Shown here: piece after piece, positions 17,319 through 31,079 of the stretch
How positions within the stretch are numbered: the stretch's first letter is position 1
How the letters are laid out: every line of letters begins with the position of its first letter
From: Candidatus Colwelliibacteriota bacterium
Lineage (GTDB): Bacteria; Patescibacteriota; Minisyncoccia; UBA6257; Colwellbacteraceae
NCBI GenBank assembly: GCA_028718505.1
Contig: JAQULQ010000005.1
Coordinates: 3,729 to 35,941 of the forward strand
Direction: 5' to 3'
DNA length: 32,213 nt
Notes under the pieces: model-generated
Told to the model about the DNA's origin: nothing
The model's input: only the letters and a program-made list of their open reading frames with translations
Database searches by the model: none
Made by a program: the position numbers and the translations under genes

Positions 17319-18662
17319 CTAAGGGTGAAGACTGATATATGCGCGTGTAATTGGGCCGAAGAAACCAACGCTGGGAATAATGTTATTCGCGATCTGAAAA
17401 CGGGCTAAGGCAGCGCGAGTTAATTCACCAAAGAAGATTGTTTCATTCCCGGGGGATCCGTAACCGGAAGCGGTAAGGATGAAACTGTGAGCATTGAGGT
17501 ACTGCTGCAGCCCCCTAACATCCTCGCCGGTGGAGCCCGCATCGAGATCGCGGGTGAATCTTTGCGCCCCGGAATCGGCGGTCACCGATGCCTGTAAGCG
17601 CGAGAGGAGCGCAACCAGTTTCTCTAACTCTGCTTGCAGCTGCGCCAGTGTCGTCTCCTCTGTATCGGTGGTGTCTTCTGTGTCGGCGGTGTCTTCGGCA
17701 GATTCTTTGGATGCACTGCCGCCGCCCCCGCCCCCGCTGTGATTTTCCTCCTCCTCGACATCATCATCTTCATCAGCGGGCTCAGACGGACTATAGGAAA
17801 TAGAATTAACTGGGTAGCTCTTGCCGACCAAAGCGATAACTGCATACGAGGTAGTAATCGGGCTGAAACCATCTTCTCCCGTTCCCATTTGATATTGGAA
17901 ATATCCTCCTTCAGCTTGCAGGGACAAAAGATGCTCTGTCGGACCGCCAACGCCCTCAATTGCCCAGTCATCAATATCTCCGCCCATAGATGTAACTGCA
18001 GAAATGATCCATGCGTCCGACGAGGCGTCAGAATCGGTTCCCCACATCCCGTGAGGATCGTATGGGAATCCGCCGTCGGCGTTCTGGGCAGACTTTAAGT
18101 AAGCGACGGCGTTCTGGATAACCGTATCGCTGTCGGAAACCCCAGATTCTGTCAGGGCCATAATGGCAGCCGTAGTCATATTGGTATCACTGCCGCCGTC
18201 TATGCTGAATCCCCAACCTCCGTCTTCGTTCTGATTCTGCAGAATAAAGTCTTTTGTGCCGGCAACCGCCGTATCGTCCGACGGCTCTCCGGCTGAAAGA
18301 AACGCTAAAAGCCCGAAGATGTCATCATTTAGAGTAGAGCTGTCCCCCATCTGGCCGTCCGTATAATAGCTTTTCAATTCTTCAATAAGGTTAGTATTAG
18401 AAAATGTTCTCGGATCTTCACCGATGGCAGTTATGGCCAAGATCGGGGCAGCGAATTCTATAGCTGTTGAACCGTCGGTGGATCTAAGGTATTCCCCGCT
18501 TGTCTCCTCTCCAACCGCCGAGAGAGCCATGGTCACCCAGGGATTATCGCTCTGTGCCAGAAGGTAGGCAGTCGCTTCCGCGACACCTGCCTTGGCAGTC
18601 TGCAACGGAAAAATTCCAAGACAGATTATCGGCAGTACGATTTGAATTAATATTTTCTTCAT
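17319..18662 (-). CDS. Secreted protein with prenyltransferase/squalene-cyclase-like alpha/alpha-toroid repeats, Gly/Ser/acidic linker and C-terminal peptidoglycan-binding-like domain
   Basis: Signal peptide MKKILIQIVLPIICLGIFPLQTAKA; repeats LQNQNEDGGWGFSIDGGSDTNMTTAAIMALTESG, LKSAQNADGGFPYDPHGMWGTDSDASSDAWIISAV, LLSLQAEGGYFQYQMG; linker GGGGGGSASKESAEDTADTEDTTDTEETT; C-terminal RDLDAGSTGEDVRGLQQYLNAHSFILTASGYGSPGNETIFFGELTRAALARFQIANNI. Confidence 0.85.
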   Translation of the reverse strand: MKKILIQIVLPIICLGIFPLQTAKAGVAEATAYLLAQSDNPWVTMALSAVGEETSGEYLRSTDGSTAIEFAAPILAITAIGEDPRTFSNTNLIEELKSYYTDGQMGDSSTLNDDIFGLLAFLSAGEPSDDTAVAGTKDFILQNQNEDGGWGFSIDGGSDTNMTTAAIMALTESGVSDSDTVIQNAVAYLKSAQNADGGFPYDPHGMWGTDSDASSDAWIISAVTSMGGDIDDWAIEGVGGPTEHLLSLQAEGGYFQYQMGTGEDGFSPITTSYAVIALVGKSYPVNSISYSPSEPADEDDDVEEEENHSGGGGGGSASKESAEDTADTEDTTDTEETTLAQLQAELEKLVALLSRLQASVTADSGAQRFTRDLDAGSTGEDVRGLQQYLNAHSFILTASGYGSPGNETIFFGELTRAALARFQIANNIIPSVGFFGPITRAYISLHP

Positions 18663-19712: not shown

Positions 19713-19758
19713 GATGATGCTGCCCGACCGCTCGGATGAGTAATCGGGCAGCATCATC
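19713..19758. terminator. Perfect 15-bp inverted repeat between convergent genes, possible terminator (no clear U-tract)
   Basis: GATGATGCTGCCCGA (19713-19727), 16-nt loop, TCGGGCAGCATCATC (19744-19758); flanked by 12-bp palindrome CAGAGATCTCTG (19702-19713). Confidence 0.5.
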
Positions 19759-20092
19759 CAGTCCTACGTTGGCGTCGTGACCAGTCGCTTTGATGATCAG
19801 CTATGACGCTGGTGTAATGTGCTCTTACGAGGGGTATCTGCCGTTCCCGACGTACCCTTCGCCGTTCTCTCTCGGACAATCCCCCCCAGACACCGAACCT
19901 TTGACCGGTGTTTATAGCGAACTCCAAACACTCCTCCCGCACTTGGCATTCTCGGCAGATTACCTTGGCGGATTGCGACGATTTTCCCCTCTCGAGAAAG
20001 AACAAATCAGAGTCGGATCCCCTACAGTTTGCCTGGTCTTGCCATTCCAGGTCGATAGGGGTGAAGGGAAAACCCTCCCAGCCTTCGTCCAT
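19754..20092 (-). CDS. WhiB-family Fe-S transcriptional regulator
   Basis: WQDQANCRGSDSDLFFLERGKSSQSAKVICRECQVREECLEFAINTGQRFGVWGGLSERERRRVRRER: C...CxxCx5C pattern, GVWGG turn and basic tail; GGAG SD before ATG. Confidence 0.93.
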   Translation of the reverse strand: MDEGWEGFPFTPIDLEWQDQANCRGSDSDLFFLERGKSSQSAKVICRECQVREECLEFAINTGQRFGVWGGLSERERRRVRRERQIPLVRAHYTSVIADHQSDWSRRQRRTG

Positions 20093-21054: not shown

Positions 21055-22269
21055 CTAATCTCGGTCGTCCGGCTCTATCAAATCCAATTTAACTCGATAA
21101 TATTTAACAGAGACTATATCTCTCACTGCCTCTACCGCAGCGTGTAGTGCAGGCGTGCCTCGGTTCACTATTATAAGGCCGCGCACCCTCTCTTTCTTCG
21201 TCGCAAGATTATTTTTTACCCAGGTTATATAACTAAGTATTTGACCCACAACATCGTATCTAGAAGAGTCCCTTTTGAGTTCTATCACCACAAAATCTCC
21301 ACTTTGATCCTTAGCCAGAACATCTATTATCCCAACATCTGTAGTAAGTTGTTGTCCTGGGGATCCGTCTTCGTCGTAGTAAAGATTAAGTTTCTCTCCA
21401 AAATCAATATTATCCCAATTGCGCACAATGAAATCCTCTAGATACGCTTCGAGTGGAAACTGCATTTCAGTGATAATATGGTGTGCAATAACCTCCTCTT
21501 TCCTTTCGTCTTGAGATGCGTCCTCATCATCTAAATTAGTAATCGTTTTGTGACTACGCTCGTCCGCGATGAGCCTCGCGGTCACATAGATGACGTCCTG
21601 TGCCATCCAACGAAATTCCAGATCAGTAAACTCCAATCCTCGTGTTAGTTGATCACGTAACTTTTGTATTTCGGGCATGGTCTTAAGAGTTTCTCTTAAG
21701 GCATCTATATACTTCGAATAGATTTCATAGCGCTCACCGATTGATGTGCGGTTTGGTATGGAGAAGTCCTCGTCAATGTATTTACAGAACAACGACCATT
21801 CTCTCGGCTTTAATGCGCTCCACAAATCGGGAAAACGAAAACCTAGAAGAAGACTAAGGAATCGTATCCCAATATAGTTGATATGATTCTCATTACGAGC
21901 CTCGTTTCTTAGTTTCATTAAGCCATCAAAGGTGTCTTCTGCGTCGTTAATCCTAGTTCTAATAGCAAGAGTATTATCGAAAAGTTTGCGCAGAGCCCCT
22001 CTGGTTTCGGCTTCAGATTCTCTCGCGAATGTAATAAGCACTCTTTTTGGAAGGTACATGTATCCCGCAACTAAATTGTTATCTTCTATAGCATTCTCCA
22101 ACATCTCTGCTAAATCTGGAGCATCGATGTTAAAGTTTTTCTGGAAAGTATCAACCGCCCTAAATTTATACCCCTCCTCTTCTGTAACGTGCACCTCGGA
22201 ACCGATCTTATCTATGTGTTCAAGATAAAGATCAATCCACTCTTTTGTCTTTTCTTTATTTATCATCAT
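21055..22269 (-). CDS. NucS/DUF91-like PD-(D/E)XK nuclease-domain protein with unassigned N-terminal region
   Basis: C-terminal LEAYLEDFIVRNWDNIDFGEKL...TTDVGIIDVLAKDQSGDFVVIELKRDSSRYDVVGQILSYITWVKNNL with D...ELKR active-site pattern. Confidence 0.8.
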   Translation of the reverse strand: MMINKEKTKEWIDLYLEHIDKIGSEVHVTEEEGYKFRAVDTFQKNFNIDAPDLAEMLENAIEDNNLVAGYMYLPKRVLITFARESEAETRGALRKLFDNTLAIRTRINDAEDTFDGLMKLRNEARNENHINYIGIRFLSLLLGFRFPDLWSALKPREWSLFCKYIDEDFSIPNRTSIGERYEIYSKYIDALRETLKTMPEIQKLRDQLTRGLEFTDLEFRWMAQDVIYVTARLIADERSHKTITNLDDEDASQDERKEEVIAHHIITEMQFPLEAYLEDFIVRNWDNIDFGEKLNLYYDEDGSPGQQLTTDVGIIDVLAKDQSGDFVVIELKRDSSRYDVVGQILSYITWVKNNLATKKERVRGLIIVNRGTPALHAAVEAVRDIVSVKYYRVKLDLIEPDDRD

Positions 22270-22960
22270 TGTTTAGTAGATCCCCTCGACCATTGTGGTA
22301 ATTACACCTCTCACATATACCATTATGTCCGGGATATGGATTATTAAGAAGTTCCACCATATCTTTTAACTTACGCTCTATATTAATGGAGCCGATGTCA
22401 ACCGGATCGATGTGTCCCTCGAATTCTATCGTAATGCTCGGGTTGGTCTTATCTTTGGGATAGTAATGTAGAAGATATGCCCTACTGGACACCTTATGGC
22501 CATGTTCCCTAAACATAAAACCATAGGCGGCTAATTGATCTCTATAGTATTTCTGTTTATCTTCACCCGGTTCATTTCCAGATGATTTATAGTCCGCCGG
22601 GACCAGCGCTCCATTTTTATCCATCAACACATCGTCGATTTTCCCTCGAAGAATATAACCAATTTTTTCATTTATAACCTCAAGGGAGCTTGTGTTCTCC
22701 CTCCACTCATTGAGTTTCTCTATATCTGTGAACGGTTTGATCCCGTCTTTTTCTAAGGCCCTAGTTTCTGGTGGAAAGGTATTCTTCTCTCGATAGCTGT
22801 CGTATCTGTGTTTTAATATTGAGTCCATCGCGGAATTTAAGAGTAGGGGCAACATGGGGGCCCTTTTATAGTGATTTTCCACCCAAAAACAAGATGGGCA
22901 GTCTGTAAATGAATATAAACCACTGGGACTCAACTTCCACAATCCTTCCTTAGTTTTCAT
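22256..22960 (-). CDS. Cas4/RecB-like PD-(D/E)XK nuclease with N- and C-terminal CxxC pairs
   Basis: LSPSGLYSFTDCPSCFWVENHY; LRGKIDDVLMDKNGALVPADYKSSGN; YYRDQLAAYGFMF; GICERCNYHNGRGD. Confidence 0.83.
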   Translation of the reverse strand: MKTKEGLWKLSPSGLYSFTDCPSCFWVENHYKRAPMLPLLLNSAMDSILKHRYDSYREKNTFPPETRALEKDGIKPFTDIEKLNEWRENTSSLEVINEKIGYILRGKIDDVLMDKNGALVPADYKSSGNEPGEDKQKYYRDQLAAYGFMFREHGHKVSSRAYLLHYYPKDKTNPSITIEFEGHIDPVDIGSINIERKLKDMVELLNNPYPGHNGICERCNYHNGRGDLLNNDDK

Positions 22961-23012: not shown

Positions 23013-23915
23013 TTAGAAACAAACTATCGGCTCTCTACCGATTTGCTCTGCAAAGTAATTTTCCACTTCTTTATATCCTCCGATCCTATCAATTAAGCCG
23101 TTTTCCAAGGCCATACTACCGAGCATAGATGAACCATCGGCTAATGCCCTAACTTTATTAATATCCAATCCCCTATTCTCCGCCACCACTTTTACAAAAG
23201 CTTCGTGGATAGCTTGCAGATCACGCATAAGTAACGCTTGTTCTTCGATTGTAAGCGGCTTTTCTGGATTAAGCATGTCTTTATATTTTCCCGTACTCAG
23301 ATTGTTGTACGTATATCCCTCTTTCTCGTTGAGTTTGCTTTCATCTATATATGACTGAGTGACACTTATACTCCCTACATCCGAAAGCGCCGAAGCGAAG
23401 ATAACATCGGCTCCCGTAGCCGCCCAATAAGCAGCGGATAGCCCCGCCTCTCTAATTTGAGCCACCACCGGCTTAGTCGCATTCTTAAGAGCGATCGCCA
23501 CTTCTTCTGCGGCTACTGGCGACCCTCCGTATGAATCTATTTCAAGCAAGATGCCCTTTATATCTGGTTCAAGCTCAGCCATTTGAATCTGATAGGTAAT
23601 GTCTTCAGCAGAGGCTTGGTCGGGTGTGCCACCAGTTTCTGGATCGGACGGCAGCGTATATGTATATAGATCTCCGTGTAACGTGATTCCCGCCACATCG
23701 CAGCCAGCATATCCATAGTCTTCCGTGGATCCTCCGCCCACTTCTTCGGAGGAATACCCAGAGTCACCAGTGTCTACATTCCAAATATAAAAGTCATACC
23801 AGAAGGCGCTGATAGTTAGTACAACCACGATCCAACCTAGTGTTTTCCAAACCTTCTGGAAACCAACATCTTGCCAGATCGACTCGGGTAATTTAGTCAT
23901 GTGTATATCCCTCAT
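23013..23915 (-). CDS. SppA-like S49 family serine peptidase, single N-terminal TM anchor
   Basis: TM WKTLGWIVVVLTISAFWYDFYIWN; IKGILLEIDSYGGSPVAAEEVAIALKNATKPVVAQIREAGLSAAYWAATGADVIFASALSDVGSISV; LSTGKYKDMLNPEKPLT; candidate Ser and Lys catalytic residues present. Confidence 0.87.
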   Translation of the reverse strand: MRDIHMTKLPESIWQDVGFQKVWKTLGWIVVVLTISAFWYDFYIWNVDTGDSGYSSEEVGGGSTEDYGYAGCDVAGITLHGDLYTYTLPSDPETGGTPDQASAEDITYQIQMAELEPDIKGILLEIDSYGGSPVAAEEVAIALKNATKPVVAQIREAGLSAAYWAATGADVIFASALSDVGSISVTQSYIDESKLNEKEGYTYNNLSTGKYKDMLNPEKPLTIEEQALLMRDLQAIHEAFVKVVAENRGLDINKVRALADGSSMLGSMALENGLIDRIGGYKEVENYFAEQIGREPIVCF

Positions 23916-26706
23916 TCTTAAGTTCCCTTAATATCGAATCGACTTGTCCCTCAATTTTCTTATCCTGTTTAATCTTCAGGCCGATTTTATTGAATGCAAA
24001 AAGAGCCGTAGTGTGATCACGCTTGAAAGCATTTCCTATAGATGGAAACGATAGTCCTATGACGCTACGAGCAAGATACATTGCTAATTGTCTTGCCTCA
24101 GCGATCTGTGCTTGGCGACCTCGACCCTTAATATCTTTGACACTAACACTCGTGTTTTTTGCTACTACCTCAATTACTTTTTCAATGGTTGTCTGAATTC
24201 TGTTCTCTTGCTCTTTAATGTAATCTACTGGATGAGACTTATGTTCAGATCTTTCAACTCCATCTCCATACTCTTTCTTAAGTGCGGCATTGATTATCTG
24301 TCTAATCCTTTCTCGTGTGAGATTAAACTTTCTAGCTATTTCCTCTAGTGTATGTGAATATTGGTCATTGAGCCCAAATCTCATCTCTATCATCTCTATT
24401 TCTCGATTACTCAATTCACCCAATAGATCTTTGCCATAAAGACCAGTTCTTACCTCAGCTTCCTTAAGCTGACCCTCTTTCCTCAAGTCCATAGAAGATT
24501 TTTCTTCGACAAAATGTTTATAAATTGAGGGGCCAAGTTCATATTTATTTTGAGAAATGTAATAGAGAACATCGTAGTCGGATCTTTTGGGCAATGTTCC
24601 TTTTTGTATCGCTTCTGGGATAGCTACATTAAGTACTTCATTAAGTATTAACTCAGCCAAATAAAGTTGTGCCGTTGTCGATTCTTCTAGATCAGATTTC
24701 TTAGGGTTCTCCCCGAAATATTTAATATTAACCGGATGATTCGGGTTTACGAGTATAAAGCCGCACGTTGGACTTTCTTGGTATGGGTCATATGTCGCCT
24801 GGAATGGTTTAGTGACCTTCTCGTCAAAATCCCACCCCCTAAATTTACCCACTAGTCCACTGGGATTTTTCGTAGACCGACTTCTTATATCAACCCTGGC
24901 TTGTGCGGAATAATCTCTACATAGCGCATCGATAACTCCAGATTCGCCAGTTTTTTCACCCACAAAAGCCACCGGTAATCGCACAATTGTTCCGTGTCGC
25001 CAATACCTATTAGACAACACCGCCTCCTCCTCTTTTAGTTTTATATATTTATTCGAGCTCATAAATTTGATCTCGTCACCGTTTTTTATAAAACGGGTGT
25101 CAATAAATAGCCACAACGTACTTTCACGATTTTCAATTGCCCGGAAATAATCTGGACTGAAAGCAATGCCGTTGTCCGGGTAAAATATGTCTAAATAGAT
25201 AACAGACACGACTACCGACGTCTTTCTTCTTCCAGATATTGCTTCAATTGTGTCTACGGTATTAGCCTTTGCACCGAATATGGTGATCGTTTTTACTAAA
25301 AGACCGTCCATTTTCTCGTCCGGCTTCTTGATCAGTATTGACTCAGGAGAAAAGCCAACATTCTTCCTTGTAGAATTGATAGTAACAATTGATCCCGGTT
25401 TGATAACCCGCGTATCTATTACAAGTTGAAGTCCGTATTTTTTGTTAACCGTAACCTCTATTTTGTTTCTGGCAAACTCTATACCCCCCGCTGGTCTTTT
25501 CTTAACGGGCGCCCGAATTGTTCCGTGTGTGCTTTCTCCGGTAAGTTGTGAATAGAATTTGTTGAGTTCGTCGAATGCTAATTTGTGTTTTTCTCGCGCC
25601 GCCTCTGAAAGACCATCATCTCCGTGTTTCTTACGCTCCCTGCTTATGATTGGATATAACCAATCTTTAATTATTTGTTGTAAATTTTTGTAGAATTCGT
25701 GTTGTTCATTAAAGCCGTCGCGAGTATCTAATAAGATTTCTTCTGGATGTTTCTTGTTAATTTTATCAAGAATTATTTCTCTGGCTCCCGTAAGCTTCAT
25801 AAAACCATAATATTTATCTGATCCCGGAAGACCGTCTAAACCGAAAAATGTTTGATCATAGACGGTACCCTTGTCGTCATAAACCAAAAGACCGCTTTCC
25901 TTTTCATCGCCGACCACAGAAAGAGATTCATCAGATTTATATAAGTCTACATCTATCTTTACCGGAGGATATTTCTCGAATGTCATCTCAAATTCTCTAT
26001 GATCATCGATCGGTTCTCCCTTCGGAAATGTATATTTAATAATTGATTGCCTTGCTCTTCCTCTCGAATCAATGTGCTGCAAAATAACGCTCCTATTGGC
26101 ATCTGAATTAATTAACTTGATCGCATAAAAACTACTAAGTTTGGCGGCTAAATGACTATACTCATGCAGGACGGTGTCCTTATCGGCGATAAACTCTATG
26201 ATTGTTCCACGGAAATTGTTTATTCCCCACTTCTTTGCTATCTGATCGATATCGCCATTAACGTGTTCGGCACTAATAAACCTCTTCTCCTTCTTCTCAT
26301 AAAATCTACAAATGGATGCTCTTCCATCCTTAATTGATTTAATTACTCCACTAGAGTGATAAAAAAGAACATCAGAAACGCCCTGTCCGAAAAGTCCTCT
26401 CACTCCATATCCCTCGTAGGCACCACTTTTCCCCGCACCGTAAACTCTGAACTTATCTTCCAGGTCCTCTTTTGTCATGCCCTCGGCATGATCTATTATT
26501 TTTACCAATCTATTTCTTTTATCTATTTGGACGATAATCGGTGATGGACTTTCAGCTTTGTCGTCGCCCTTCGCGGACAGAATACGATAACTATCGTCAG
26601 AGTTTGTTATGGGTTCGGTCAGGGTTTTGAGAATGTTTTTCCCGACCGCATTAGAGCTTTTTCTTCTGATATAACGAGGGGCGATTCTTACCTCAATTTC
26701 TGACAT
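23893..26706 (-). CDS. GHKL/HSP90-like ATPase, sigma-70 region 4-like HTH and DnaA domain IV fusion protein
   Basis: N-terminal LTEPITNSDDSYRIL...IIDHAEGMTKEDLEDKFRVYGAGKSGAYEGYGVRGLFGQGVSDVLF (N box, G1, G2-like); aa about 765-813 LSNREIEMIEMRFGLNDQYSHTLEEIARKFNLTRERIRQIINAALKKE; C-terminal aa about 851-937 VKDIKGRGRQAQIAEARQLAMYLARSVIGLSFPSIGNAFKRDHTTALFAFNKI. Confidence 0.9.
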   Translation of the reverse strand: MSEIEVRIAPRYIRRKSSNAVGKNILKTLTEPITNSDDSYRILSAKGDDKAESPSPIIVQIDKRNRLVKIIDHAEGMTKEDLEDKFRVYGAGKSGAYEGYGVRGLFGQGVSDVLFYHSSGVIKSIKDGRASICRFYEKKEKRFISAEHVNGDIDQIAKKWGINNFRGTIIEFIADKDTVLHEYSHLAAKLSSFYAIKLINSDANRSVILQHIDSRGRARQSIIKYTFPKGEPIDDHREFEMTFEKYPPVKIDVDLYKSDESLSVVGDEKESGLLVYDDKGTVYDQTFFGLDGLPGSDKYYGFMKLTGAREIILDKINKKHPEEILLDTRDGFNEQHEFYKNLQQIIKDWLYPIISRERKKHGDDGLSEAAREKHKLAFDELNKFYSQLTGESTHGTIRAPVKKRPAGGIEFARNKIEVTVNKKYGLQLVIDTRVIKPGSIVTINSTRKNVGFSPESILIKKPDEKMDGLLVKTITIFGAKANTVDTIEAISGRRKTSVVVSVIYLDIFYPDNGIAFSPDYFRAIENRESTLWLFIDTRFIKNGDEIKFMSSNKYIKLKEEEAVLSNRYWRHGTIVRLPVAFVGEKTGESGVIDALCRDYSAQARVDIRSRSTKNPSGLVGKFRGWDFDEKVTKPFQATYDPYQESPTCGFILVNPNHPVNIKYFGENPKKSDLEESTTAQLYLAELILNEVLNVAIPEAIQKGTLPKRSDYDVLYYISQNKYELGPSIYKHFVEEKSSMDLRKEGQLKEAEVRTGLYGKDLLGELSNREIEMIEMRFGLNDQYSHTLEEIARKFNLTRERIRQIINAALKKEYGDGVERSEHKSHPVDYIKEQENRIQTTIEKVIEVVAKNTSVSVKDIKGRGRQAQIAEARQLAMYLARSVIGLSFPSIGNAFKRDHTTALFAFNKIGLKIKQDKKIEGQVDSILRELKNEGYTHD

Positions 26707-26716
26707 GGTAGCCTAT

Positions 26717-27367
26717 CTATTTAAATAGATTTGCAAACCTTTTTTCTATCCAACTTAAAAATTTGATGGTTTGTCCACTCTTCGCGATTACGGCAGCTCG
26801 CTTGAGTTGTTCGAGATATTCGACTAAGAGATGGTGCGGGGTATATGGTACCGCCTTCAGAAAGGCCAATACTTCATAGTCCGTTATTTCATAATTCCCA
26901 CCACACCACTTCTGAAATAATTGCGATTCAATGATTTCTGTAACGTCTTGTTCAGAAGATCTCCCCCTCGATCGTCTAGATATAACATGCTTCTTCTGTC
27001 GACTCGGGGTTTTTAATAAGTTCTCTGTCTGCATTGCCATCTCTTTCCCTAAATCCGTAATATAGAAACCGGTTTCAATACTACCCGTTGCCCAATTTTT
27101 TCTTCTGGGGTCAACCAATCTTCTAAGGGACTTATTTATTCGATTCGTGTCGGGGTAGATATTGAAACTTGCCATCGAAAACTTTGTGGGGAACATTTTA
27201 AAAAGACTGACTGATATATAATCCCAATAAAGTGGGATCTTCTTTTTTTCTAGAATCGACATCGCAAAAATAGCCAACCTATCTAAGTCCAGATTTTTAT
27301 AACTTTCCGGGGGCAGAGGACGTAAACCTAAAACAAGTTTATCGACCTTGTCTTCGCGCTTAATCAT
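26717..27367 (-). CDS. Hypothetical protein, 216 aa, possibly winged-helix DNA-binding
   Basis: Long ORF in operon; RINKSLRRLVDPRRKNWATGSIETGFYITDLGKEMAMQTE resembles a wHTH region; overlaps upstream gene by 4 bp. Confidence 0.7.
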   Translation of the reverse strand: MIKREDKVDKLVLGLRPLPPESYKNLDLDRLAIFAMSILEKKKIPLYWDYISVSLFKMFPTKFSMASFNIYPDTNRINKSLRRLVDPRRKNWATGSIETGFYITDLGKEMAMQTENLLKTPSRQKKHVISRRSRGRSSEQDVTEIIESQLFQKWCGGNYEITDYEVLAFLKAVPYTPHHLLVEYLEQLKRAAVIAKSGQTIKFLSWIEKRFANLFK

Positions 27368-27594
27368 AATTTGAACTCTCTCTTCTTTTCTCTTTGGCCA
27401 CGCTGAAAGGCTGCTTTTGAAACCCTTGTAGCGCCATCGATAGCGCTAAATATTTTATGTACTTCTGTGTCGGAATAACTGTACAGCGAAGTATTGGAAA
27501 GATTGCTTAAAATACGAAGGTCCTCAAGGACTCGAGTAACCCTTTTCTCAGCAAGCTCCCTGAACTTTCTATTCTTTTCTTCCTTCCTGTTCAT
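27364..27594 (-). CDS. Small 76-aa protein of unknown function, first gene of operon
   Basis: MNRKEEKNRKFRELAEKRVTRVLEDLRILSNLSNTSLYSYSDTEVHKIFSAIDGATRVSKAAFQRGQREKKREFKL; ATGA-type overlap with next gene; near-consensus promoter upstream. Confidence 0.75.
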   Translation of the reverse strand: MNRKEEKNRKFRELAEKRVTRVLEDLRILSNLSNTSLYSYSDTEVHKIFSAIDGATRVSKAAFQRGQREKKREFKL

Positions 27595-27603
27595 AGTACG
27601 GCT

Positions 27604-27647
27604 ATTATACTCTCGCAGAATATTCTGTCAAGTATTCTGTGAATACT
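27604..27647 (-). promoter_or_regulatory. Near-consensus sigma-70 promoter overlapped by palindromic operator-like sites
   Basis: Minus strand TTGACA (27631-27626), 16-bp spacer, TATAAT (27609-27604); palindromes CAGAATATTCTG (27616-27627) and AGTATTC-tgt-GAATACT (27631-27647); ATG only about 9 nt after -10. Confidence 0.75.
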
Positions 27648-27797
27648 CACGGGAATGCTGATGATAGAAGATAAAAGGCGCAATCGATTATCCTAAGTAG
27701 ATCTACTGCTGAGGTGACTTTAAAAAGACCATCTCGGCGTAGATTTGCGTTCACAACGTATATTTCCCGTTTTTAGCGTTGGGGATTAAGGCCATTT

Positions 27798-27930: not shown

Positions 27931-29214
27931 ATGAAAGAGGAACGATTAATTTGGAAAACGGAGAGTCGTATAGTTAACGATCTTCTCCCCTACTCCGAAA
28001 ATCCACGACGGATGTCAGATAAGCAGATCGAAGGCCTTAAAAAGAGCCTCAGGCGGTTCAATCTAGTCGAAATCCCCGCGATAGACAAAGACAACAGGAT
28101 AATCGCAGGTCATCAACGCATAAAGGCGCTCCAGCTACTCGATCGTGGCGAAGAATCAATCGAGGTGCGTGTGCCCAATCGTAAACTCACCCAAAAGGAA
28201 TACGAGCAGTATCTCTTAACCAGTAACGCCGTAATTGGCGATTGGGATTACGAGAAACTTAAGCTCTTTGATTTAGATTTTTTGGTAGATGTTGGTTTCG
28301 ATCCAATAGAAATTGCCCCGTTTTGGGACAAAGACGCAGAAGTAATAGAAGAGAACTTCGATGTGGAGAAAGAGCTTAAGAGGATTAAAGAAGTCCAGAC
28401 TAAGCCCGGTGATCTAATCATTCTCGGTAAACATAAATTAATTTGTGGAGATTCGACCAACCTTGATGTTCTCGCGAAGCTTTTTGGTGAGGACCGGGCC
28501 TCTATGATCTATTCTGACCCGATCTATAACATAGACATCGATTACAACGGGGGCATAGGCGGCAAACAGAACTATGGCGGTTCAGTAATCGACAGCCGTA
28601 GTGATCAGGAATACAGGGACTTGATAAAAAGCTCCTTGGTTAATGCCCTCGCCTATTCTAAAGAGGACGTCCACGTCTTTTATTGGTCAGATCAGACCTA
28701 TATCTGGCTCATCCAAACCCTCTATAAGGAATTGGGCATCCAGAATAAGAGAGTGTGTCTATGGATTAAAAACGGGCATAACCCCACTCCCCTCGTAGCC
28801 TTTAACAAGGCCTACGAGCCATGTACGTATGGAGTACGAGGAAGACCGTACATTGCTAAAGACATTCAAAACCTGAATGAAGTAATGAATAAGGAAACGA
28901 CTACTGGCAACAATATGCTGGACGAGATAAGTGACATCTGGGCAGTAAAAAGACTGGCGGGTAGAGATTACGAACATGCCACATCCAAACCACCTCAATT
29001 ACACCAGAAAGCCATTCTACGTTGCACTAAGCCGGGCGATATTATTCTCGACAGCTTCTCTGGGTCAGGTAGTACCCTAATCGCCGCAGAACAATTAAAA
29101 AGAAGGGTCTATGCGGTTGAGCTTGAACCCGTATTCTGTGATCTCACGATTAGAAGATTCGAAAAGCTGACTGGCTTGAAAGCCGAAGTAATGCGTGGTG
29201 ATGAAAAAAGATAG
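27931..29214 (+). CDS. ParB-like N-terminal domain fused to DNA (adenine-N6 or cytosine-N4) methyltransferase
   Basis: LLPYSENPRRMSDKQIEGLKKSLRRFNLVEIPAIDKDNRIIAGHQRIKALQLL (ParB/Srx); SMIYSDPIYNIDIDYNGGIGG (DPPY-like); DIILDSFSGSGSTLIAAEQLKRRVYAVELEPVFCDL (AdoMet motif). Confidence 0.93.
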   Translation: MKEERLIWKTESRIVNDLLPYSENPRRMSDKQIEGLKKSLRRFNLVEIPAIDKDNRIIAGHQRIKALQLLDRGEESIEVRVPNRKLTQKEYEQYLLTSNAVIGDWDYEKLKLFDLDFLVDVGFDPIEIAPFWDKDAEVIEENFDVEKELKRIKEVQTKPGDLIILGKHKLICGDSTNLDVLAKLFGEDRASMIYSDPIYNIDIDYNGGIGGKQNYGGSVIDSRSDQEYRDLIKSSLVNALAYSKEDVHVFYWSDQTYIWLIQTLYKELGIQNKRVCLWIKNGHNPTPLVAFNKAYEPCTYGVRGRPYIAKDIQNLNEVMNKETTTGNNMLDEISDIWAVKRLAGRDYEHATSKPPQLHQKAILRCTKPGDIILDSFSGSGSTLIAAEQLKRRVYAVELEPVFCDLTIRRFEKLTGLKAEVMRGDEKR

Positions 29215-29632
29215 ATTAGCTAAAAAGTTTCTAGAAGAACTATCTGAGGTGCCGATAGTTTCTGATAGCTGTGAAAAAGTTGGAATATCGAGGAATACGC
29301 CATACAGATGGCGAAGAGAAGATCCTGTTTTCTCGAAAGAAATGAGTCGAGCGATGAGTATGGGCGTGAATCACGTAAGCGATTTAGCCGAAAGTAAGCT
29401 GATACAAAAAATCCAGCAAGGAGATATGGCTGCTATCAAATATTGGTTAAATAATCGCAAGAGGAACTATGCTCGTCCGCGTCCTAAAGATTATTGGGAT
29501 ACAAAAAGAATTGAGGGGAACATTATCCAGCTTGTGGATATGAGTAGAGATACTGCAAAGAAAGAGAAACGACTAGAAGAACTGGAGAAGAAATACGGCC
29601 ACTTGATGCCAGAGGAAGATTCAAAAGATTAA
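29201..29632 (+). CDS. HTH protein resembling phage terminase small subunit
   Basis: SDSCEKVGISRNTPYRWRREDPVFSKEMSRAMSMGVNHVSDLAESKLIQKIQQGDMAAIKYWLNNRKRNYARPR; ATG at 29201 preferred over GTG at 29195; overlaps methyltransferase end. Confidence 0.65.
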   Translation: MKKDRLAKKFLEELSEVPIVSDSCEKVGISRNTPYRWRREDPVFSKEMSRAMSMGVNHVSDLAESKLIQKIQQGDMAAIKYWLNNRKRNYARPRPKDYWDTKRIEGNIIQLVDMSRDTAKKEKRLEELEKKYGHLMPEEDSKD

Positions 29633-29741
29633 CAGAGCTCCTTTTCCCCTATCACAGACTCTTTGTTTTGCTAAGCCCGTCTGCCAACAAGTTGTCAACG
29701 ATCCTAATTTACTCCTGGTGGGGATCTGTCATCCATTAGAT

Positions 29742-31079
29742 ATGGATACACAAATAAGCGCCCTCACCAGCGACAAAGTGGTTATACCAGTACCAAAGGT
29801 CAAATACTGCCTATACGCCCGTAAAAGCACCGAATCTGACGAAAAACAGGCCCTTTCCATAGACTCCCAGGTAAAGGAGATGCTCCAGATAGCTGAACGG
29901 GATGAGCTGGATATAGTAGATATCCGGAGAGAATCTCACTCAGCTAAGGACTCAGCCCAAAGGCCAGTATTTGAGGAGATCCTTAGAGATATAAGGTCGG
30001 GTAGATACACGGGAATCCTTACCTGGGCTCCCGACAGATTGAGTCGTAATGCTGGAGATTTAGGGAGTCTAGTCGATCTTATGGATCAAAAAAGCCTCAT
30101 TGAGATACGTACCTTTGGACAGATATTCACCAACTCCCCTAGCGAGAAGTTTCTCCTAATGATTCTCTGTTCGCAGGCAAAGTTAGAAAACGATAACAAG
30201 AGCGTGAATGTGAAGCGTGGACTTAGGGCTAGATGTGAAATGGGATTATGGCCAGCACCAGCTCCTACCGGCTACCTCAACGAAAAGAGAATTGATAGGA
30301 AGGGATATGTATTAATAGACGAAGAACGAGCACCTATCGTCAAACAAATATTCGAGAAAGTAGCTAATGAGAAATGGAGTGGACGTAAGCTCTATAACTG
30401 GCTTAAGTTCGATCTTAATTTTAAAACTATTGGGAATAAGAATTTTACTCTGGGGAACATATATACACTGCTAGACAATACTTTCTACTACGGTACTTTC
30501 GAGTATCCTAGGAAGAGTGGAAATTGGTATGCGGGTAAACACCAACCGATTATTACCAAAGAACTTTTCGATCAAACGCAAAAGCAGGTAAAAAGCCAGT
30601 TTGTGAAATCTGAGGGTAAGGAATTTGCCTTTACTAAATTAATGACCTGCGGACTGTGTAAGTCGGGGATCACTGCTGAGGAGAAATTCAAAAAACAGAA
30701 GAATGGCAATATCCATCGATATGTTTATTACGTCTGTGCTAGATCGAAAGATAGGAATTGCAAGGGTGGATATATTAATGAGAAAGATCTCTTAATCCAA
30801 TTTGAGAACCTTATTGAAAAAATAGATATTGATGAAATTGGTATAAGGGGGAAAATAAGAGCAGAGGTAGAAAGATTTAAGAAGTTCCAACAGGTTCTCT
30901 TGGGAAGAAAAGAAAAGATTCAAATAGAAGAAATAGATATTCGGAACTATGCTAAGTATCTCCTAAGAGAAGGGATGGATGTCGAAAAACGAGAACTACT
31001 CGGGTGCTTAAAAAGCAGATTAACATTAAAAGAGGGGGCTGTGTTCTTAGCTCCTGGGGATAAATTTGAGAGTGTATAA
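29742..31079 (+). CDS. Large serine recombinase (resolvase + recombinase + zinc ribbon domains)
   Basis: YCLYARKSTESDEKQALSIDSQVKEML, ILTWAPDRLSRNAGDLGSLVDLMDQ, FLLMILCSQAKLENDNKSVNVKRGLRARCEMG, CGLCKSG...YYVCARSKDRNCKGGYINEKDL. ORF track begins at GTG 29718; ATG at 29742. Confidence 0.95.
   Translation: MDTQISALTSDKVVIPVPKVKYCLYARKSTESDEKQALSIDSQVKEMLQIAERDELDIVDIRRESHSAKDSAQRPVFEEILRDIRSGRYTGILTWAPDRLSRNAGDLGSLVDLMDQKSLIEIRTFGQIFTNSPSEKFLLMILCSQAKLENDNKSVNVKRGLRARCEMGLWPAPAPTGYLNEKRIDRKGYVLIDEERAPIVKQIFEKVANEKWSGRKLYNWLKFDLNFKTIGNKNFTLGNIYTLLDNTFYYGTFEYPRKSGNWYAGKHQPIITKELFDQTQKQVKSQFVKSEGKEFAFTKLMTCGLCKSGITAEEKFKKQKNGNIHRYVYYVCARSKDRNCKGGYINEKDLLIQFENLIEKIDIDEIGIRGKIRAEVERFKKFQQVLLGRKEKIQIEEIDIRNYAKYLLREGMDVEKRELLGCLKSRLTLKEGAVFLAPGDKFESV

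Follow-up and report, generated by a model that had tools for sequence, protein, structure and literature searches.

A mobile GHKL ATPase of Patescibacteria with a tail of sigma-70 region 4 and DnaA domain IV, a candidate defence protein

The stretch of DNA analysed here (the window) comprises 32,213 nucleotides of a contig (JAQULQ010000005.1) from a Candidatus Colwelliibacteriota bacterium (assembly GCA_028718505.1) and carries on its minus strand, at 23893..26706, an open reading frame (ORF) that starts with ATG and runs without interruption for 937 amino acids (aa). Its product joins a GHKL ATPase to region 4 of sigma-70 (sigma-4) and to domain IV of DnaA (DnaA-IV), an architecture that had been proposed in a preliminary description of this DNA and that was confirmed by Pfam and profile searches and by an AlphaFold model compared with Foldseek. 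The preliminary description treated the protein alone and missed that its gene comes third in a conserved operon, after those for a small protein and a ~215-aa protein. On balance, we infer that this ATPase serves as the subunit for ATP hydrolysis and recognition in a restriction-like defence system, mobile and GHKL-based, that is found in Patescibacteria.

Domain architecture of the 937-aa protein

The two C-terminal domains have RpoD and DnaA as their source families. Sigma-70 region 4 was placed at aa ~759-811 (24274..24432, minus strand), which refines the earlier estimate of aa about 765-813; Sigma70_r4 matched aa 761-811 with E=2.3e-11 and a score of 43.4 bits, where 24.1 is the cut-off, and the -35 recognition helix, TRERIRQI, is the same as in SigA/RpoD. 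DnaA domain IV follows at aa 829-931 (23914..24222, minus strand), where Bac_DnaA_C matched aa 841-908 with E=6.6e-23 and 81 bits against a cut-off of 31.5, and the signature that contacts the DnaA box (Arg and RDHTT) is retained. Both matches, on whose significance the preliminary description depended, are thus over the Pfam cut-offs. In contrast to these two domains, neither sigma regions 2 and 3 nor, as previously stated, the AAA+ domain of DnaA were detected in the 937-aa protein by domain library scans, and it therefore cannot serve as an initiator or as a sigma factor.

The ATPase module, GHKL plus transducer, occupies aa 1-315 (25762..26706, minus strand). In a single-sequence hidden Markov model search the GHKL signal of the window protein is weak (Pfam HATPase_c_3, E=0.038, sub-threshold); the assignment was made because the GHKL domain was matched in its orthologues (E=1.1e-4 and 4.4e-4), a profile match to HSP90 was obtained (E=2e-4), the AlphaFold model (predicted local distance difference test, pLDDT, 82; predicted template modelling score, pTM, 0.46) retrieved the ATPase regions of ParE/GyrB, HSP90 and MORC3 from PDB with Foldseek (E 6e-12 to 3e-9), and the motif residues are conserved, with the catalytic ones intact. 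According to these searches, the protein has the N-box, G1 and G2 motifs and the transducer domain of the GHKL superfamily, and residues E31, N35, D72, G76, G104, G109 and T168 are invariant across 27 homologues; the search pattern itself specified the I33-Y40 stretch, N35 included, which is therefore kept by construction, and G1, G2 and T168 lie outside it. GyrB and HSP90 scored better than MORC in both the profile and the Foldseek searches; we refer to HSP90/GyrB-like GHKL domains as type A and to MORC-like ones as type B. Between ATPase and tail, the AlphaFold model contains two beta-sandwich, immunoglobulin-like domains at ~409-503 and 514-608 (aa ~409-608; 24883..25482, minus strand), and a conserved region at 624-732 precedes sigma-4. 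Foldseek also retrieved giant-virus proteins of similar layout with the 937-aa model (Hokovirus A0A1V0SGC9, E=5e-23; Yasminevirus A0A5K0UA26); judged by the model, this type of ATPase may also be present in giant viruses.

Recurrence of the sigma-4 and DnaA-IV pair

The full architecture is present in three other Patescibacteria assemblies (L070, L071 and L072), at 37-54% identity. A profile of the tail, searched against 387 genomes of the class, returned three more fusions, two of type A (G582 and G598, which correspond to L070 and L072) and one of type B (G705), and the fusions matched with E 1e-33 or better versus 1e-23 for ordinary DnaA. The same profile found fusions nowhere among 381 genomes of the phylum except in the window's own genome. 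Additionally, 85,462 species genomes were searched with the alignment of type-A GHKL domains, and 80 loci were kept; in 33 of them, spread over many phyla, the ~215-aa protein (p215) is encoded upstream, and only in Patescibacteria do these 33 loci have the tail (L070, L071 and L072; L075 is truncated). Since GHKL and p215 are paired widely among bacteria, with the tail confined to Patescibacteria, the tail looks, from its sequence distribution, like an addition made in Patescibacteria to that pair. Single-sequence pattern scans found no relatives, whereas alignment and profile searches did; a pattern search of viral contigs gave no type-A relative, and the type-A GHKL was not found among plasmids.

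The window's genome holds a second copy. Its contig 16 carries a parallel cassette with a methyltransferase, a helix-turn-helix (HTH) protein, a serine recombinase 58% identical to that of the window, an 85-aa protein related to the small one (43%) and a 677-aa GHKL-sigma4-DnaA-IV protein, and has a trypsin-like protease in place of the S49 protease of the window. The GHKL domain of the 677-aa protein is MORC-like (HATPase_c_3, E=2.4e-24; Morc6_S5, E=7e-6; MORC2 structures, E=4e-12), and its tail can be aligned end to end with that of the window protein at 27% identity (E=4e-15). This type-B fusion is known from contig 16 and from G705. A tree of DnaA-IV clustered the two type-B tails (support 99) and split the type-A tails, on a domain (~70-100 aa) too short to decide a single origin of the tails.

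The pair also occurs in trans. In G431, the small gene and p215 are followed by a 704-aa GHKL-like protein (profile E=9e-16) and then by a protein of 382 aa in which DnaA-IV (E=5.4e-22) precedes sigma-4 (E=4.3e-5; its 23.4 bits fall just short of the 24.1 required) and whose end is rich in cysteine. In G590, one contig carries the last part of the same GHKL gene and, after it, a homologue of this 382-aa protein (36% identity) with the sigma-4-like helix VTRERIRQI; the start of this operon runs off another contig, and the join is inferred rather than assembled. Both proteins thus place DnaA-IV before an HTH like sigma-70 region 4, with a cysteine-rich end, directly after a GHKL gene (L225:5007-6155 and L249:148-1149). 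This reversed order in trans suggests, at the level of sequence, that the trans pairing arose separately from the fused one. All the proteins with both domains that we found, six fused and two in trans, lie in such operons, and the pair accompanies GHKL ATPases in three arrangements: fused to type A, fused to type B, and in trans with reverse order.

This recurrence bears on two alternatives. The window comes from a single draft genome (577 kb in 29 contigs, an estimated 96% complete, with 7% estimated contamination) whose named relatives are Patescibacteria, and an assembly chimera, which the preliminary description had asked to be checked, or chance domain matches might be suspected on those grounds; nevertheless, the full-length architecture is shared by independent assemblies and by a second GHKL family, and the domain E-values are far from chance, so that we ruled out an artefact for practical purposes. 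In a second alternative, sigma-4 and DnaA-IV would be mere HTH units that raise affinity for DNA with no specificity for promoters or origins. The helices of type-B sigma-4, KQRVYQI and RQRVYQL, depart from the residues that read the -35 element, tail-less relatives are common, and the DnaA-IV signature of L070 is degenerate, all of which would agree with such a tether. It is nonetheless quite improbable, because repeated pairing of the same two domains, in both orders, is not to be expected if HTH units are taken up by chance, and the type-A helices are identical to that of RpoD.

The conserved operon and its mobile, defence-like context

The first gene of all eight operons, six fused and two in trans (with the G590 join inferred), encodes the same ~75-aa protein, of a family that has no Pfam model (window 27364-27594; L179, L220-L238) and that lies upstream in 6/6 fusion loci. 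We found the small protein in 24 of the 387 class genomes. In nearly all loci examined its gene heads an operon in which the next gene or genes are of GHKL type, of several kinds, several of these calls being motifs read by eye on which Pfam is silent, and these operons often have a DNA methyltransferase gene on the opposite strand, or else Vsr-like genes. The sole match among plasmids was on a Deinococcus plasmid, where the small gene adjoins a C5 methyltransferase and Vsr, and the phage records searched contained none. In four p215 loci (L073, L076, L100 and L104), a different protein of ~135 aa (cluster c8) replaces it upstream of p215. The small protein is, in this regard, a useful marker for finding further such operons.

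In the window, the 76-aa small protein (27364..27594), p215 (216 aa; 26717..27367, directly upstream of type-A GHKL as in the 33 loci) and the 937-aa ATPase are followed on the minus strand by an S49, SppA-like protease with an N-terminal hydrophobic helix (23013..23915, overlapping the ATPase gene by 23 bp), a PD-(D/E)XK nuclease similar to Cas4/PDDEXK_1 (22256..22960) and a protein with a NucS/PDC-S02-like PD-(D/E)XK C-terminus (21055..22269), the last three being possible effectors; the gaps in this run are -4, +10, -23, +52 and -14 bp. Upstream of the small gene, a promoter-like region (27595..27650, minus strand) contains TTGACA, TATAAT and the inverted repeats AGTATTC/GAATACT. In the window, as in L071, inverted repeats enclose TTGACA. 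A promoter-like region of this kind, with TTGACA, inverted repeats and a motif of the TTATAAGG type, recurs upstream of the small genes of L070, L071, L075 and L220-L224. As TTATAAGG-type motifs are also found upstream in systems without the tail, autoregulation is more likely the task of the small protein, which probably regulates the operon.

Divergently from the operon, the plus strand encodes a fusion of ParB with an N6/N4 DNA methyltransferase, a possible modification enzyme (27931..29214), whose cognate relation to the downstream PD-(D/E)XK genes is putative, and then a recombinase cassette protein with an HTH like the terminase small subunit (29195..29632) and the large serine recombinase of the island (29718..31079). 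Two islands of this one genome share a cassette that encodes a (ParB-)methyltransferase, an HTH protein resembling the terminase small subunit, and a large serine recombinase (window 27931-31079; L034:7357-9970). Large serine recombinases accompany the window, contig-16 and G598 copies, and the contig-16 cassette ends beside a tRNA-Asn gene. The three-gene cassette of L071 fits exactly between two tRNA-Arg genes.

The location of several copies on recombinase islands, together with a promoter whose TTGACA lies inside inverted repeats, raises the alternative that the ATPase binds promoters or DnaA boxes of its own island to control how this is transcribed, replicated or excised, and has no role in defence. 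We regard this as unlikely: the DnaA boxes near the operon are not enriched (3 versus 1.9 expected in the window), the tail-less p215-GHKL pair exists in many phyla without a common element, no recombinase adjoins the L071 cassette, and the promoter motifs are shared with tail-less systems. The same count leaves unsupported the earlier suggestion that the protein locks replication initiation.

Around the 33 p215-GHKL loci lie, among others, genes for DNA methyltransferases and matches to Mrr, Fic/SoFic, PIN, PDC-S04, mad2 and DrmMII, a defence-like context that is suggestive. Furthermore, the genes after the ATPase vary by copy: the S49 protease and nucleases, the trypsin-like protease, PDC-S11, or a PLD-type PDC-S05. 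This variation fits modular effectors but would also fit unrelated cargo.

On its left side, the window consists of core chromosome, with scpA, dnaX and glycosyltransferases of the murG/mraY type, and the island extends from about 18.7 kb onward; no direct repeats bounding it were found in its window part, and the contig stops about 1.1 kb beyond the recombinase. WhiB-type transcription factors are usually actinobacterial or phage-borne; one is encoded at 19754-20092 (E=1e-24), inside this Patescibacteria island. In addition, a 447-aa protein at 17322-18662 shows an odd pairing of a squalene-hopene-cyclase-like toroid with a peptidoglycan-binding domain.

Relation to known systems and proposed mode of action

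Several known systems resemble this one in part. In the anti-phage system MZA (mzaABCDE), too, a member of the sigma-70 family (MzaA) is paired with a GHKL ATPase similar to MORC and MutL (MzaB); the type-B fusion matched MzaB over the GHKL domain (E=6e-20, 71 bits against a cut-off of 850) and the sigma-4 of the window matched MzaA (E=4e-14, 52 bits against a cut-off of 800). MzaA is, however, a separate protein whose model can be aligned with RpoD well past region 4, whereas the window has region 4 only, fused and together with DnaA-IV, and none of the window genes flanking the ORF matched Z1 or AIPR. As both the cut-offs and the gene content failed, the system was not classed as MZA. Prokaryotic MORC ATPases sit in restriction-modification (R-M) operons (PMC2292703), and the MORC/paraMORC ATPases described there combine GHKL and S5 domains with variable C-terminal extensions near methyltransferases and nucleases, as here, where the S5 domain was matched in type B; unlike in those operons, the type A of the window is closer to GyrB/HSP90 in searches, the window showed no superfamily-II helicase, and neither sigma nor DnaA is mentioned in the text of Iyer, Abhiman and Aravind 2008 (PMC2292703). 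In PDC-M33, a candidate defence system of PADLOC, the GHKL-like subunit A (PDC-M33A, E ~1e-120) is preceded by the same small protein (L232 and L233), but the window ATPase has no PDC-M33A match and PDC-M33 lacks the sigma-4/DnaA-IV module. For VcSduA, a Shedu protein with a GHKL N-terminus, the ATPase has been proposed to control the effector in phage defence (PMC12137116); its fused part is a DUF4263 nuclease, whereas in the window the fused part is DNA-binding and the candidate effectors are separate genes. No description of the GHKL, sigma-4 and DnaA-IV architecture was found in the literature, with most subscription papers outside the search, and the claim that it is undescribed stands within the libraries and literature searched. 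Taken with these likenesses, the system has the look of GHKL-based defence, or of something akin to R-M, equipped with a recognition module that is new.

ATP drives N-terminal dimerisation of the GyrB, MutL and MORC relatives into a clamp, and ATP binding would dimerise the 937-aa ATPase in the same manner. The tail, a recognition module built from sigma-4 and DnaA-IV, would bring this clamp to -35-like and DnaA-box-like sequences on incoming DNA, or to RNA polymerase there, and the closed clamp would license adjacent effectors, which vary between copies and here may be the S49 protease and the two PD-(D/E)XK nucleases; the neighbouring methyltransferase may protect self DNA. Coupling of the ATPase to promoter or origin recognition, as had been put forward, is plausible given that the residues for DNA contact are retained and that the sigma-4/DnaA-IV pair recurs with GHKL operons in three arrangements, and the sensing of invading replicons, also put forward, fits the mobile, defence-like context.

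The same two domains could instead be bait in an integrated decoy, in which binding by phage anti-sigma or anti-DnaA proteins alters the ATPase and triggers the effectors. Phage proteins do target sigma-70 region 4, for instance AsiA of T4; both domains copy exact host targets and retain host-like surfaces, their pairing in three arrangements is with sensor-type ATPases, and some operons continue with proteases and nucleases. On the other hand, bait need not retain DNA-contact residues, which are nevertheless retained, the C-terminal part of RpoD past the recognition helix is unmatched, and no phage protein attacking sigma-4 or DnaA is known for Patescibacteria. A decoy appears unlikely, though it is a serious alternative.

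Some observations count against a restriction-like defence system that reads promoters and origins. L070 has LDHAT instead of RDHTT, so strict reading of the DnaA box may be dispensable. DnaA boxes are not enriched near the operon. Beside other copies, neither the S49 protease nor the nucleases are conserved, and they may be separate cargo; the methyltransferase, also found in the contig-16 recombinase cassette, may be unrelated to the operon; and the neighbour counts of the p215-GHKL loci, which have no matched control, are suggestive only. Even so, we lean towards the defence system. More tentatively, it may represent a mobile immune class in which a GHKL ATPase spots invaders via copied parts of the host initiators of transcription and replication, either by reading promoters and origins on incoming DNA or as a decoy for phage proteins directed at sigma-4 and DnaA.

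Patescibacteria rarely encode CRISPR-Cas (PMC6509639), and the operon adds a defence-like gene set to this group. Because the association is seen in two lineages of fusions and once more in trans, it is a testable rule and not a curiosity, and the combination suggests a new means by which a defence protein could locate or sense what it targets. If this is true, the DNA-binding ends of sigma and DnaA would be used jointly outside transcription and replication, and GHKL-based immunity would be tied to recognition of the promoter and of the origin, the two events of DNA recognition that are most universal in bacteria.

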